A stretch of 64,000 nt of DNA from a virus, in IMG/VR virus record IMGVR_UViG_3300020203_000008, positions 1-64,000 of that record. One strand, 5' to 3'. A model generated the notes under the pieces. The model had not been told where the DNA came from. It saw nothing but the letters and a program-made list of their open reading frames with translations, and did no database searches. The position numbers and the translations under genes are program-made. Positions 2,206 to 25,922 of this stretch are shown here, piece after piece. Every line of letters begins with the position of its first letter. Within the stretch, counting starts at the first letter, position 1.

Positions 2206-4602
2206 GTGACTACCGTTACGCACACCCTTGTTGATGAGATCGCGGGACCCCTCCGAAATGCTTACGTAGAGGTATCGCTGCTTGCCCCAACTGTTGACGA
2301 TCCCGCTTACATCCTTTCTGGTGGATACCAGATCATTGGCCGCAAGATCGCCCAGACCAACACGAACGGCAACTGGACTCTTGATCTTGTCCCAAATTCT
2401 TCGATAACACCAGCAAATACCGTCTACCGGGTGATCCACTCTCCGAAGGGGGACTCGGCCAGAACTACTGCATACTTCAAGGTCCCAGTGGCGGGTGCTA
2501 CCCCGACAACCCATACTCTGCTCAGCCTCCTGACTAATCCACCTGGCAATCTTGGAGGAGGCGTAGTCAGTGGGACAATCGATATTCTGGATGAGGGCAT
2601 CCTCACGACTACCGCCAACTCGCTTAATTTCGTGGGTATCGGCGTCACCGTCACAGACATGGGTGGTGGGGTATCCAGAATTACGGTTACTGGTGGAGGA
2701 GGTGCCACACCGACAAGCGGCTCACTTGAGATCAAGCTGAATAACAGCACCGCGGTTGCGGCTGCATCGAAGGTAGATTTCTCATCTCAATTCGGGGTCG
2801 CTGAGTCACCCTCTGGCGAGGCAAACGTAACGATTGCTGGTATCTCCAGTGCGATAGTGAGTGGATTGGGAACGGCCGCTGCCGCTAATACAACAGCCTT
2901 TGATGCAGCCGGTGCTGCTGCTGCCGCACAGGCTGCATCTCAGCCAATAGATTCCGATTTGACCACAATCGGGAATATTAGTCCAACCAACGATGACATA
3001 ATCCAACGCAAGGCGGGCGTATGGACTAATCGCTCGATTGCTCAGTTGATCATTGACCTTGGGTCTAACTTCCAGAGTTTGGCTGCCACTCCTTATCAGC
3101 CGTTGGACTCGGATCTCACGGCTATAGCACTCTTGTCCACTACGGCGTATGGACGTGCTTTCCTTGCTCTTGCTGATGCAACTGCTGGAAGAAGCGCCCT
3201 AGCTCTGGGGACTGCTGCTACTTCTAGTGCGACAGATTTTCAGCCTGTAGATTCAGACCTCACAGCTATTGCACTCTTGTCAACTACCTCGTTTGGTCGC
3301 AGCCTATTAACCTTAAATGATGCGGCCGCTTTACGGGCTGCTGCCGGTGTTGGCACTGCTTCGCTTCTCGATAAGAACACTGTATCCGTCACCCCAATTG
3401 GGGTTAGGACTACCAACTATAATGCGGCTGCTGGAGACTTCATTCCTGCTGATGTCTCCGGTGGTGGTTTTACTGTCACGCTACCAGATTCTCCGATAGA
3501 TGGAGCAAGAATTGGGATTAAGCTTATTGCTGCTAGCATAGCAGCAACTCCCGCTATACTCAGCGTAGTTACTTCTGGTTCCAATACATTTAATACGACT
3601 GGTGGATCCACTTCTGTTACGATGACCCTGCTTAATCAGGGGTTGGATCTTCAATTCAGAGCGTCCACTGGGATTTGGTATACCTCTTCTAATTTTCCAA
3701 TTACTTCCCTTGATACTAGGTATCTTCTTACGCCAACGGAGATTAAGACTACCGACTATAATGCAGTCGGCGGAGATCTCATACCAGTAGATCTCTCTGG
3801 TGGATCAGTCACTATTACTCTTCCGTTCGCCCCCATAGACCGAACTCTTATTTCAGCAAAACTACTTACGTTGTTTAGTGGTGCTACGCCTAATCTACTC
3901 ACTATTGTTTGTTCAGGTACGAATACTTTTAATAGGTCCGGGAGTTCCACCTTTACGATGTCTACTCAGAATCAGAGAGTGGATCTCCAGTACCAGGCTT
4001 CAACTGGAACATGGCATTCAGCTTCTGCTCTATCGTTAGGCGCTCTTGACACTAGATATTTGACGATGGGGCTCGACAAGGTACTCACAGTCGGCCAATC
4101 GACTCTCTCCCGTCCGGCAACCGCAGGTTCGAGCCAGACGATGGCAACCGGCCAGTTGCGGCTCACCTACTTCACGAGCACGAAAACAGAGACGGTCACG
4201 CAGTGCCGGGTCAATACGCACACCACTGCCGCTGGGGCGACACCGACCCTTGTCAGGTTCGGGCTCTACTCCGTAGCTGGGAACGGTGATCTGACACTCA
4301 TCGCGTCAACTCCGAACGACACGACTCTGTTCGCCGTGGCTAACACGTCGTACACGAGAGCGTTCTCTGTGCCGGTGGGTGTTTCGATCGGGATGTCCTA
4401 TGCGTTCGGTATCCTTGTTGTGACTGGGGCAGCAGCACCTACCGTTCGTGGTCTCGCGTCGATCACAGAAGCCACCGAGTACGGGCAGGCCCCCCGCATG
4501 TTCGGTCAAATGACAGGCCAAACGAATTTGCCGACCCCTATCGCATCTGGGTCAATCACAAACAGTGGCGGCGGCGGTATCTACTCGGTGATCCTGCCGT
4601 AA
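2206..4602 (+). CDS. tail fibre / receptor-binding protein
   Basis: This 798-aa protein starts at a GTG nine bases after an in-frame TAG. After an N-terminal beta domain (about 1-100) it has Ala-rich tail-fibre repeats with the motif DSDLTAIALLSTT twice (about residues 300-360). Two copies of a ~110-aa module follow (about 405-510 and 515-620), each running from YNA..GD.IP to STG.W. A ~180-aa C-terminal beta domain (from DKVLTVGQSTLSRPA) resembles carbohydrate-binding tips of actinophage fibres. The internal duplications explain the length. It is expected to sit on the virion tail and bind the host envelope. Confidence 0.8.
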   Translation: MTTVTHTLVDEIAGPLRNAYVEVSLLAPTVDDPAYILSGGYQIIGRKIAQTNTNGNWTLDLVPNSSITPANTVYRVIHSPKGDSARTTAYFKVPVAGATPTTHTLLSLLTNPPGNLGGGVVSGTIDILDEGILTTTANSLNFVGIGVTVTDMGGGVSRITVTGGGGATPTSGSLEIKLNNSTAVAAASKVDFSSQFGVAESPSGEANVTIAGISSAIVSGLGTAAAANTTAFDAAGAAAAAQAASQPIDSDLTTIGNISPTNDDIIQRKAGVWTNRSIAQLIIDLGSNFQSLAATPYQPLDSDLTAIALLSTTAYGRAFLALADATAGRSALALGTAATSSATDFQPVDSDLTAIALLSTTSFGRSLLTLNDAAALRAAAGVGTASLLDKNTVSVTPIGVRTTNYNAAAGDFIPADVSGGGFTVTLPDSPIDGARIGIKLIAASIAATPAILSVVTSGSNTFNTTGGSTSVTMTLLNQGLDLQFRASTGIWYTSSNFPITSLDTRYLLTPTEIKTTDYNAVGGDLIPVDLSGGSVTITLPFAPIDRTLISAKLLTLFSGATPNLLTIVCSGTNTFNRSGSSTFTMSTQNQRVDLQYQASTGTWHSASALSLGALDTRYLTMGLDKVLTVGQSTLSRPATAGSSQTMATGQLRLTYFTSTKTETVTQCRVNTHTTAAGATPTLVRFGLYSVAGNGDLTLIASTPNDTTLFAVANTSYTRAFSVPVGVSIGMSYAFGILVVTGAAAPTVRGLASITEATEYGQAPRMFGQMTGQTNLPTPIASGSITNSGGGGIYSVILP

Positions 4603-7734: not shown

Positions 7735-7764
7735 TCAATCGTAATCAAACAAGGAGCAATGGAA

Positions 7765-8130
7765 ATGGAAAACGTTTAGGTAGCACTCAAGGAAGGGGAT
7801 CGGACGTACATCCTTGTACGTGCTGACCTTTCTCCCGGCCAGCAGGCTGTCCAAGCTGCTCATGCCGCATTTAGCTTCTCCCTGGAGCATCCACAGATCG
7901 CTCGGGAGTGGCATAACATCTCCCAGTATCTGGTTCTTCTCGCTGTCCCAGACGTGGAGACGTTGCTGGATTTTGTGACGGATGCCTACGATCTAGGCGT
8001 TCCGTTGTATATGCAGACCGAGCCGGACCTCGGGGACGAAGCGACCGCTTTGGCGCTTGCTCCTTCTGAGGCCGTTCGTCTGCTAGTTTCTCGGCTGCCT
8101 CTCGCGTTGCGTGAGGAGGCTGTCGTGTGA
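7765..8130 (+). CDS. peptidyl-tRNA hydrolase (PTH2 type) interrupted by in-frame UAG
   Basis: From the ATG at 7765 (eight bases after AAGGAG) the frame reads Met-Glu-Asn-Val, then TAG (7777-7779), then 116 uninterrupted codons to TGA at 8128. The product has the PTH2 core: YILVRADLSPGQQ, QAAHAAFSF, YLVLLAVPDVETL and a C-terminal ALAPSEAVRLL. PTH2 enzymes cleave the ester bond of peptidyl-tRNA released from stalled ribosomes. No ATG, GTG or TTG lies in frame between the amber codon and the first core strand, so the enzyme needs UAG readthrough. A CUA-anticodon tRNA lies at 8260. An ATG at 7759 is an alternative start. A sequencing error (CAG or AAG to TAG) is possible. Confidence 0.75.
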
Positions 8131-8170
8131 GTCCTGCCGGGTGGGGGGTCATTCCCTCATCCGGCTCCAA

Positions 8171-8223
8171 GCCCCTGTAGGTATCCAGACCTACCAGACG
8201 TTTAAGTCGTCTCAGGGGCACCA
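8171..8223 (+). ncRNA. tRNA-like structure lacking a normal anticodon domain
   Basis: GCCCCTG (8171-8177) pairs with CAGGGGC (8213-8219), followed by A and CCA, as in a tRNA acceptor end. Directly 5' of the 3' strand is AGACG-TTTAAGT-CGTCT (8196-8212), which has T-arm geometry and a T-loop-like sequence. Between the acceptor strand and this arm is only a small hairpin TAGGT-ATCCAG-ACCTA. It resembles an acceptor/T-arm minihelix. A decayed tRNA gene is the main alternative. Confidence 0.5.
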
Positions 8224-8258
8224 TGGGAGAGAGGGTGTCAAAGCCCTCTCTCCCACCA
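8224..8258 (+). ncRNA. 12-bp minihelix ending in ACCA
   Basis: GGGAGAGAGGG (8225-8235) pairs perfectly with CCCTCTCTCCC (8244-8254), and T8236-G8243 extends it to 12 bp. That is the length of stacked acceptor and T stems, and the 3' strand is followed by ACCA. It abuts the tRNA-like element on one side and the suppressor tRNA on the other. It could also act as a terminator, though no U run follows. Confidence 0.4.
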
Positions 8259-8259
8259 A

Positions 8260-8330
8260 GCGCCCCTAGCACAGTGGTAGTGCAACCGATTCTAACCCGG
8301 TAGACGAGCGTTCGATCCGCTCGGGGCGCA
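8260..8330 (+). tRNA. amber-suppressor tRNA, anticodon CUA
   Basis: A full cloverleaf: acceptor GCGCCCC/GGGGCGC, D stem GCAC/GTGC, T arm GAGCG-TTCGATC-CGCTC, discriminator A, no encoded CCA. The anticodon loop TTCTAAC gives CTA at 8292-8294, preceded by T33 and followed by A37, so it should read UAG. The anticodon stem has four pairs plus an A31-C39 mismatch. The acceptor and A73 closely match the tRNA-Lys(UUU) at 23709, and U35 is shared, so lysine charging is plausible but unproven. Confidence 0.85.
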
Positions 8331-8342
8331 CACTTAAATCAA

Positions 8343-8379
8343 CGTTGACCCTGGCAGATTGCTCTGACCAGGGTCAACG
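8343..8379. terminator. hairpin between convergent transcripts
   Basis: CGTTGACCCTGG and CCAGGGTCAACG are perfect 12-base arms with a 13-base loop. The hairpin sits between the suppressor tRNA and the 3' end of a reverse-strand gene, so it may stop transcription from both sides. No U tract is present on the forward strand. Confidence 0.55.
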
Positions 8380-8646: not shown

Positions 8647-8904
8647 ATGGATGAAAAAACCCTTAAAGCGTTTATGTTGCAAACGAAGAAGTCCAAGGGT
8701 TGCCTGATCTGGACTGGGCCGCGCTTTGGGCCGGATGGCTATGGGATCTTTAAGATGAGCGAGATTAAGATGCTGGCCCATCGTGCAATGTGGATGCATG
8801 AAAACGGCTTAGCTGATCCGAAGAACATCGTTTTTCAGACATGCAAGAACAAGGGTTGTGTGTCGATCGAGCACCTAGAGGAGCGAGATGCTCCAAGAAT
8901 TTGA
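8647..8904 (+). CDS. HNH-fold nuclease-like protein, possibly inactive
   Basis: The 85-aa protein follows the HNH_3 pattern: GCLIWTGPRFGPDGYG, AHRAMWMHENG, then CKNKGCVSIEHLEE. In active relatives the segment before the CxN motif carries the catalytic histidine (as in RHKC), but here it reads VFQTC. The zinc/structural Cys-Cys and final EHLE are kept. It may be a degenerate homing endonuclease or a DNA-binding derivative. Confidence 0.65.
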   Translation: MDEKTLKAFMLQTKKSKGCLIWTGPRFGPDGYGIFKMSEIKMLAHRAMWMHENGLADPKNIVFQTCKNKGCVSIEHLEERDAPRI

Positions 8905-16333: not shown

Positions 16334-17107
16334 GTGAAAATCCTTATTTGTGGAGACACTCATGGCAATAATGCTTGGTGGGCTCGACTAGTTGAGTACG
16401 CTCAAAAGCATGCCTGCGAGAAAATCGTTCAGCTCGGAGATTTCGGATACTGGGAGCATCGACGTGAAGGCGTAGAATACCTTGATAAGACCAGTAAAAA
16501 AGCGACGATGGCTGGCATTCCGATTTACTTCATTGACGGGAACCACGAGAACCATCCCCTCTTATGGGAGCGTTACCCTCCTGGCGAGGATGGGTTCTGC
16601 AAGCTCCGAGAGAATCTCTATTACATCCCCCGTGGTAACTCCTGGACCTGGGATGGCGTAAAATTCCTTGGTATTGGCGGGGCTTATTCGGTTGATAAGC
16701 CTTGGCGTGTCCAGGAAGAAGAGACGTATCGTGAGCCACGGACTCTATGGTGGCCAACCGAACTAATCCGAGACGTGGACGTTCAGAAGTGTCTTGAGGT
16801 TGGGAAGGTGGACGTTGTCTTCTCTCATGACTGTCCGACTGGGATAGAACTTCCTGGTATTGGCGGGGAATATCCAGTTTCAAATGCCAACCGTGCTTAC
16901 TTGAGACATATTATCGATCACGTACAGCCACAGGTTGTGTTCCATGGTCATTACCATATGCGGAATTCCGGACAATTGAATGCGGCTTTCGAGCAACATG
17001 GTAAACTATTGTGGAGATCTGTTCGAGTTGAGGGTTATGCTCATGATGGTGAGTGGAGTCAGAATTCCTGGCAAGTGATAGAGACGAAGGAGATCAGCAG
17101 TGCATGA
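16334..17107 (+). CDS. calcineurin-like metallophosphoesterase
   Basis: 257 aa with all five metallophosphoesterase motifs in order: GDTHG (7-11), LGDFGYWE, DGNHENH, SHDCP and HGHYH. The two-metal active site should be complete. Relatives are nucleotide or protein phosphatases and RNA-repair phosphatases; the substrate is not predictable here. Start ATG? none upstream; GTG 16334 is in frame with good content. Confidence 0.85.
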   Translation: MKILICGDTHGNNAWWARLVEYAQKHACEKIVQLGDFGYWEHRREGVEYLDKTSKKATMAGIPIYFIDGNHENHPLLWERYPPGEDGFCKLRENLYYIPRGNSWTWDGVKFLGIGGAYSVDKPWRVQEEETYREPRTLWWPTELIRDVDVQKCLEVGKVDVVFSHDCPTGIELPGIGGEYPVSNANRAYLRHIIDHVQPQVVFHGHYHMRNSGQLNAAFEQHGKLLWRSVRVEGYAHDGEWSQNSWQVIETKEISSA

Positions 17108-25476: not shown

Positions 25477-25853
25477 GGGTCTGACAGGCTTCGATTGTGT
25501 TATCCGAGGTATGTTTCGCTGGTCGTCCAGAGTAGGGACGTTAAAGAACTCACAAGCCTTAACTGGCAACGCAATGGACAACATCGACGCTGAGTACGAA
25601 GCCCTTGTGGCTTCTTACGAGGGTGCCCTCGTCTAACGAGGGTCGTCTGGGGTAGGTCACCTCGCCTTATTATCCAAAGTGACCCCGTGCCCGGTCGGTT
25701 AACCGTGGCCCGTTCCCTAGAGCTAGGGTGGCACCCCCGAAGGGGCTGACTTTCAGGAAAGACTGAAAATATGGGAGCCATCCCTAAATGGCTATACCAG
25801 TAGACGGACTATTTACGAAGCACAAGACCCCGGTTCGATTCCGGGCAGATCCA
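25477..25853 (+). ncRNA. ssrA: tmRNA (transfer-messenger RNA)
   Basis: The 5' end GGGTCTGACAGGCTTCGATT pairs its first seven bases with CAGATCC (25846-25852) just before the discriminator A. The 3' domain has a normal T arm CCCGG-TTCGATT-CCGGG. A tag frame runs from about GGC 25565 to TAA 25634-25636, encoding a 23-residue peptide that starts Gly-Asn-Ala-Met-Asp and ends Glu-Gly-Ala-Leu-Val. A -Ala-Leu-Val end is also known, from memory, for mycobacteriophage tmRNAs. A hairpin follows the tag stop as in helix 5. tmRNA frees ribosomes from stop-less mRNAs. The resume codon choice rests on an A four bases upstream. Confidence 0.85.
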
Positions 25854-25922
25854 CCGAGGGAACGTTCTGAGAAGCTCACTGAGCGCCACCGCGTATGAGA
25901 TTGGAACCACGGAGAGCGCGAG

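Follow-up and report, generated by a model that had tools for sequence, protein, structure and literature searches.

Anticodon-free tRNA mimics in a candidate phage cassette with a stop-gated PTH2 gene and a stop-decoding tRNA

The window analysed here, a stretch of viral DNA of 64,000 nucleotides, carries three short CCA-ended elements that keep the acceptor and T-arm half of a tRNA and lie between a PTH2-like gene and a tRNA with the anticodon CUA. We propose, with a probability of about 0.5, that they encode small, stable tRNA mimics without a decoding function, in one operon-like cassette with PTH2 and the stop-decoding tRNA, and that the mimics act as acceptor-end ligands. The genes themselves and the stop gate at the start of PTH2 are well supported. 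At the level of sequence, comparison establishes conserved and covarying structures ending in NCCA, their tandem arrangement with tRNA-CUA at one-base spacing, a stop that matches the anticodon of this tRNA, and a 3' context that favours suppression. The cassette looks like a real, apparently undescribed system rather than a set of decayed tRNAs. The features of the locus are as follows.

7751..7756, plus strand: Shine-Dalgarno-like AAGGAG, 8 nt 5' of the ATG at 7765 (from the sequence)
7759..8130, plus strand: PTH2-like gene, ATG at 7765 (or 7759), TGA at 8128-8130 (PF01981, AlphaFold2, Foldseek)
7777..7779, plus strand: in-frame amber gate TAG, next base G; the core has no start codon before it
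8136..8169, plus strand: minihelix 1, 34 nt, UCCA end, 12-13 bp, loop GTCATT (folding, hairpin scan, covariation)
8171..8223, plus strand: tRNA mimic, 53 nt, ACCA end, acceptor with a single hairpin and a T-arm (folding, covariation)
8225..8258, plus strand: minihelix 2, 34 nt, ACCA end, 12-bp hairpin, loop GTCAAA (folding, scan, covariation)
8260..8331, plus strand: tRNA with anticodon CUA (ARAGORN 'tRNA-Pyl'), discriminator A, CCA not encoded

Four tandem tRNA-related units thus stand directly 3' of the PTH2 TGA, three mimics and then a normal tRNA-CUA, separated by the single bases A8170, T8224 and A8259. The original prediction had described two CCA-ended mimics of the acceptor/T-arm half (8171-8223 and 8225-8258) adjoining PTH2 and a suppressor tRNA, and both are borne out by sequence and folding; it overlooked a third of the same kind at 8136-8169, and it was right about the two neighbours but missed the stop gate in PTH2 and the conservation of the cassette. 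In the 53-nt element, a 7-bp acceptor stem (GCCCCTG/CAGGGGC) encloses a single 6-bp hairpin, which stands where the D and anticodon arms would be, and a T-arm (AGACG-TTTAAGT-CGTCT); the element ends in ACCA, and the minimum free energy is -22.6 kcal/mol (z -4.4). For minihelix 2 the value is -26.4 (z -6.5), and none of 200 shuffles was equally stable. Hairpins of 12 or more perfect base pairs that lead into NCCA occur twice on the plus strand of the window, both times at the mimic locus, and once on the minus strand, elsewhere and with a loop that is not T-loop-like; 40 simulated 64-kb sequences contained none. Neither RF00005 (up to E 10) nor ARAGORN detected the elements of 8136-8258 as tRNA, only tRNA-CUA being found, and no Rfam match to a theta/HDV-like ribozyme was obtained at the locus.

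Just 3' of tRNA-CUA lies a long inverted repeat (8342-8379, GTTGACCCTGG...CCAGGGTCAAC) without a T-run, which is a possible transcript end, and an HNH endonuclease gene downstream of the cassette (8647-8904, PHROG 1872) is a possible mobility factor for it. Between 12458 and 34015 the window carries 37 more tRNA genes and a tmRNA gene (25477-25855). CCA is encoded in 12 of the 38 window tRNAs as against all three mimics.

Since megablast of the locus against phages gave no DNA match, relatives were sought through PTH2. Profiles of the protein, together with named phages, yielded 144 loci in about 98 lineages at 80% identity (L numbers below are loci of this set), and in bacterial genome contigs no relative of this subfamily could be confirmed. 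Often a stop-decoding tRNA is the immediate neighbour of PTH2, as in the C1 mycobacteriophages, Myrna, Acinetobacter phage ME3 and many metagenomic phages. In Myrna (NC_011273 33407-33593, L013 3351-3537), the 'tRNA-Ser' genes 85 and 86 are misannotated: gene 85 overlaps a minihelix and an armless element, and gene 86 is a CUA tRNA according to ARAGORN.

Eleven copies of the minihelix were found in six divergent phage lineages: two in the window, two in L002, two in Myrna and a close relative, one each in L035 and L056, and three in L175. All are exactly 34 nt long and align without gaps, with G1:C30, A16 and the final CCA invariant and a loop consensus of GUCAAA, and all form a coaxial stem of 7+5 bp with NCCA, the innermost pair being open in five. 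The original prediction had proposed to look for compensatory changes in related phages, and these are abundant in minihelices and armless elements alike. Across the 11 minihelices, 11 of 12 pairs changed on both sides with 96% of cells paired, a level reached by none of 500 shuffles, and sliding the partner strand lowered pairing to 39-54%. A covariance model built from eight minihelices found the three previously unseen L175 copies at E 2e-5 to 1e-3; in about 790 kb its strong matches all lie beside PTH2 and a CUA tRNA, and other matches reach E 0.021 and weaker. A DNA-pattern scan of viral contigs returned 28 stretches, in which the stem is formed in Myrna, a Myrna-like phage and the L002 contig; the other 25 were rejected as minihelices, with pairing at 9 or fewer of 12 positions. 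A U-G wobble at the second acceptor pair (columns 2:29) recurs in 5 of the 11 copies, none of which is in the window, and could be an identity or anti-identity element. The alanine determinant G3:U70 was absent by eye from all minihelices.

The 53-nt armless type recurs as elements of 49-60 nt in Myrna, L019, L026, L030, L047, L057 and C1 phages. In eight sequences, aligned with the acceptor and T-arm segments of each row joined by hand, 99% of positions in the acceptor and T-arm are paired and 11 of 12 pairs covary. In a third type, seen in L065, the cloverleaf is kept and the anticodon stem is capped by UUCG, and similar but less clear forms occur in L002, L056 and L175. The rule common to the mimic types is that the anticodon is lost while the acceptor and T-arm are kept. 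That the elements are simply decaying tRNA genes is very improbable. The phage is tRNA-rich, and graded forms do exist, from the UUCG-capped cloverleaf down to the minihelix, both of which would fit decay; but the fixed length of 34 nt, the conserved loop and the 11 of 12 covarying pairs across six lineages contradict it. Nor was an intact sense tRNA seen at these places in mimic-bearing relatives, an occurrence that the original prediction had named as the mark of decay.

All mimics found lie in cassettes that combine a divergent phage PTH2, mimics and a stop-decoding tRNA. The order in Myrna is that of the window (PTH2, minihelix, armless element, minihelix, tRNA-CUA), and in L175 three minihelices alternate with larger elements before tRNA-CUA. 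One alternative is that the minihelices are processing punctuation, minimal RNase P sites at which the PTH2 mRNA is cut off and the suppressor tRNA and larger RNAs are parted from one another, with no function for the fragments cut out. In most lineages the first mimic begins 5-8 nt behind the PTH2 stop, the minihelices alternate with larger elements, and a minihelix adjoins tRNA-CUA at one base in the window, Myrna, L002, L056 and L175, all of which such punctuation would explain. We nevertheless consider it unlikely, in that other tRNAs in the window clusters need no such spacers, CCA is kept in every minihelix though RNase P cleavage would manage without it and 26 of the 38 window tRNAs do not encode it, and the armless elements, at 49-60 nt, exceed the size that such a role requires.

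The preferred reading, that the mimics are functional partners of PTH2, draws on their co-occurrence with the gate. Of the 40 lineages in which PTH2 has a stop at its beginning, 15 carry mimics; of the 58 others, none does (Fisher, p 2e-7). The count comes from a hand-curated list in which L057 and its duplicate L186 count separately and a weaker L025 element is included, and the lineages are not phylogenetically independent, with shared ancestry uncorrected. This distribution points to mimics and gate being a shared system, as judged from the genomes compared. Fifty-eight lineages lack both, which also implies that PTH2 can do without mimics.

The gate itself lies at the very start of the gene. 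In the window, the 5' end of PTH2 reads AAGGAG-CAATGGAA-ATG GAA AAC GTT TAG GTA GCA, so that the in-frame TAG leaves no open reading frame in the standard code, and between this TAG (7777-7779) and the conserved core there is no ATG, GTG or TTG. Recoding of the window phage (code 15) was ruled out, as TAG ends 12 of 61 crude window genes and is thus an ordinary stop elsewhere in this phage. Among the 98 PTH2 lineages, gates are TAG in 31, TAA in 2 and TGA in 1, the last apparently spurious (L021, where the GTG start has no Shine-Dalgarno match and no stop-tRNA was found). The 31 TAG-gated genes all begin with ATG or GTG, followed by 0-11 further codons, TAG and the core with no later start, and in 28 of them the gating TAG is codon 2 to 5. 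Wherever ARAGORN found a stop-tRNA in range of a TAG-gated gene, its anticodon is CUA (21 of 21); of the two TAA-gated lineages, L050 has a UUA tRNA directly behind PTH2 and L057 has one 2.9 kb away. A purine 3' of the stop favours amber suppression, and in all 31 lineages a purine follows the gating TAG, compared with 22 of 39 TAG stops of ordinary ORFs at the same loci (p 8e-6). Five more lineages (Myrna, C1, L035, L065 and L175) have a start-TAG-start arrangement; these phages can initiate after the TAG and so need no suppression.

Read through the TAG, the window PTH2 scores 35.3 bits against Pfam PF01981 (cut-off 23). For the part 3' of the TAG, AlphaFold2 gives a model with a pLDDT of 94; at E < 1e-3 Foldseek matches this model to 14 proteins, among them 2zv3, 1q7s, 1wn2 and 3erj, all of which are archaeal and human PTH2-fold proteins. 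The phage family has Q for the lysine of the cellular 'GK' and 'EPD' for 'DAG', and so departs from the active-site motifs; hydrolase activity can therefore not be assumed, and the chemistry of phage PTH2, to judge from these substitutions, may differ from that of cellular PTH2. Myrna has a second PTH2, at 16397-16738, that is nearer the cellular kind.

How might the parts of the cassette work together? The acceptor and T-stem with CCA make up a minimal RNase P substrate, and because the enzyme needs little beyond such a hairpin, it is very likely that RNase P would cut the transcript at each mimic and release RNAs of 34 and 53 nt. It is also very likely that synthesis of PTH2 would depend on charged tRNA-CUA reading the gate. 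Because the array also supplies this tRNA, PTH2 would have to wait for processing and charging, so that it would appear only after the downstream array had been processed and there would be no PTH2 without mimics. With moderate confidence, we further suggest that the non-decoding mimics would occupy proteins that bind tRNA by its acceptor/T half. PTH enzymes are of this kind, and this, together with the coupling of PTH2 to the array, would make the co-encoded PTH2 the most likely target, buffered or tuned by the mimics as its ligands; host enzymes that attack tRNA 3' ends are possibly a further target. If so, CCA-ended, anticodon-free minihelices serving as acceptor-end ligands or decoys would be a new natural class of RNA and, with a suppressor-gated translation factor, would make up a phage device for translation control or counter-defence, to which we give a little under an even chance.

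A different role within the same array is that the mimics tune suppression, competing with tRNA-CUA for maturation, CCA addition, synthetase or EF-Tu and thereby setting PTH2 readthrough. The co-occurrence of mimics and gate and their origin in one array would fit; we find it rather doubtful, however, given that no identity elements shared by the mimics and tRNA-CUA were found by eye and that host and phage tRNAs dominate the EF-Tu and synthetase pools.

The strongest rival to mimics as PTH2 ligands is that they are decoys against host defence, sacrificial acceptor ends for AbiEii/MenT nucleotidyltransferases and GNAT acetyltransferases, with PTH2 removing blocked aminoacyl groups. Minihelix 1 of the window (8136-8169) and one of the L002 copies (3651-3684) have G1:C72, C2:G71, C3:G70 and U73, which we take to be glycine-type acceptor features, and these would suit the decoy role: MenT1 of Mycobacterium tuberculosis modifies the isolated CCA-ended acceptor stem of tRNA-Gly (PMC10435456), and the acetylation of Gly-tRNA by M. 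tuberculosis TacT is reversed by Pth (PMC9241777). The proposal is an improbable one overall; it leaves unexplained why mimics are restricted to lineages whose PTH2 has a stop at its beginning, A73 and different acceptor pairs are found in other minihelices, and the window phage has no known host or toxin.

Several known systems resemble parts of the cassette proposed here. In textbooks, minihelices stand for the oldest half of tRNA, and both synthetic tRNA minihelices and RNase P model substrates (acceptor and T-stem hairpins such as pATSer) are laboratory constructs. They share with the phage elements a 12-bp acceptor/T stack, a small loop and an NCCA end, whereas the elements described here are natural, conserved and tandemly encoded, with a 6-nt GUCAAA-like loop. 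The armless mitochondrial tRNAs of nematodes and mites likewise reduce the cloverleaf to hairpins with a CCA end but are reported to keep the anticodon and to decode, and may lack the T-arm, whereas the phage mimics keep the T-arm and have no anticodon (PMC7730189, PMC12221289). Code-15 phages combine suppressor tRNAs with small structured RNAs, the theta ribozymes (PMC10879173); in contrast, the window phage shows no recoding, readthrough would affect only the PTH2 start, and the locus has no theta ribozyme. Phage PTH2 has been discussed as a ribosome-rescue factor, both for jumbo phages (PMC7824862) and for the arrays of cluster C mycobacteriophages (PMC5966550), and the relevant passages of these papers, which concern the same protein family near tRNAs, make no mention of a stop gate, a linked suppressor tRNA or mimics. 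An engineered feed-forward loop in Escherichia coli is reported to express an amber gene only with its suppressor tRNA (PMC7969014); that loop is synthetic and the phage cassette natural.

Readthrough targets of phage suppressor tRNAs have been sought after stop codons, and none were found (PMC5852040). The cassette suggests a purpose for stop-decoding tRNAs in phages that are not recoded, where their presence has been unexplained, by linking them to PTH2, and about a third of the sampled PTH2 lineages appear to need a stop-decoding tRNA for translation. In the open-access literature we found no paper joining phage PTH2 with suppressor tRNAs, no PTH2 stop gate and no natural phage minihelices; a natural gene family that makes CCA-ended minihelices thus seems undescribed in the papers searched, and the view that the system is categorically new is provisional. 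Relatives are found in Myrna and in the C1 mycobacteriophages, which are widely held, so every step can be tested now.

Some gated and ungated genes outside the main pattern deserve mention. The AT-rich gated contigs L183, L184 and L219 could be recoded phages, and the huge phage LR756501 (L107) was left out because of a further internal TAG in its PTH2 and possible recoding. Phage XacN1 has two CUA tRNAs, and the gated PTH2 predicted from them was not found among its two PTH2-like genes, both ungated; the second (L118 244296-244547) is a divergent PTH2-like domain in ORF364 that is not beside the CUA tRNAs. A UUA tRNA, which reads ochre, comes after an ungated PTH2 in L016, L017, L018, L028 and L062. 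When the records of L103, L107-L109, L026, L067, L071 and L029 were searched by pattern for CUA tRNAs, the result was mostly noise, but one such tRNA was recovered about 3.3 kb downstream of the gated PTH2 of Erwinia phage pEa_SNUABM_44 (L103, 285.4 kb). The TAG-gated PTH2 of this phage is not annotated, and that of Acinetobacter phage ME3 (L104) appears in the annotation as a hypothetical protein with an internal start.
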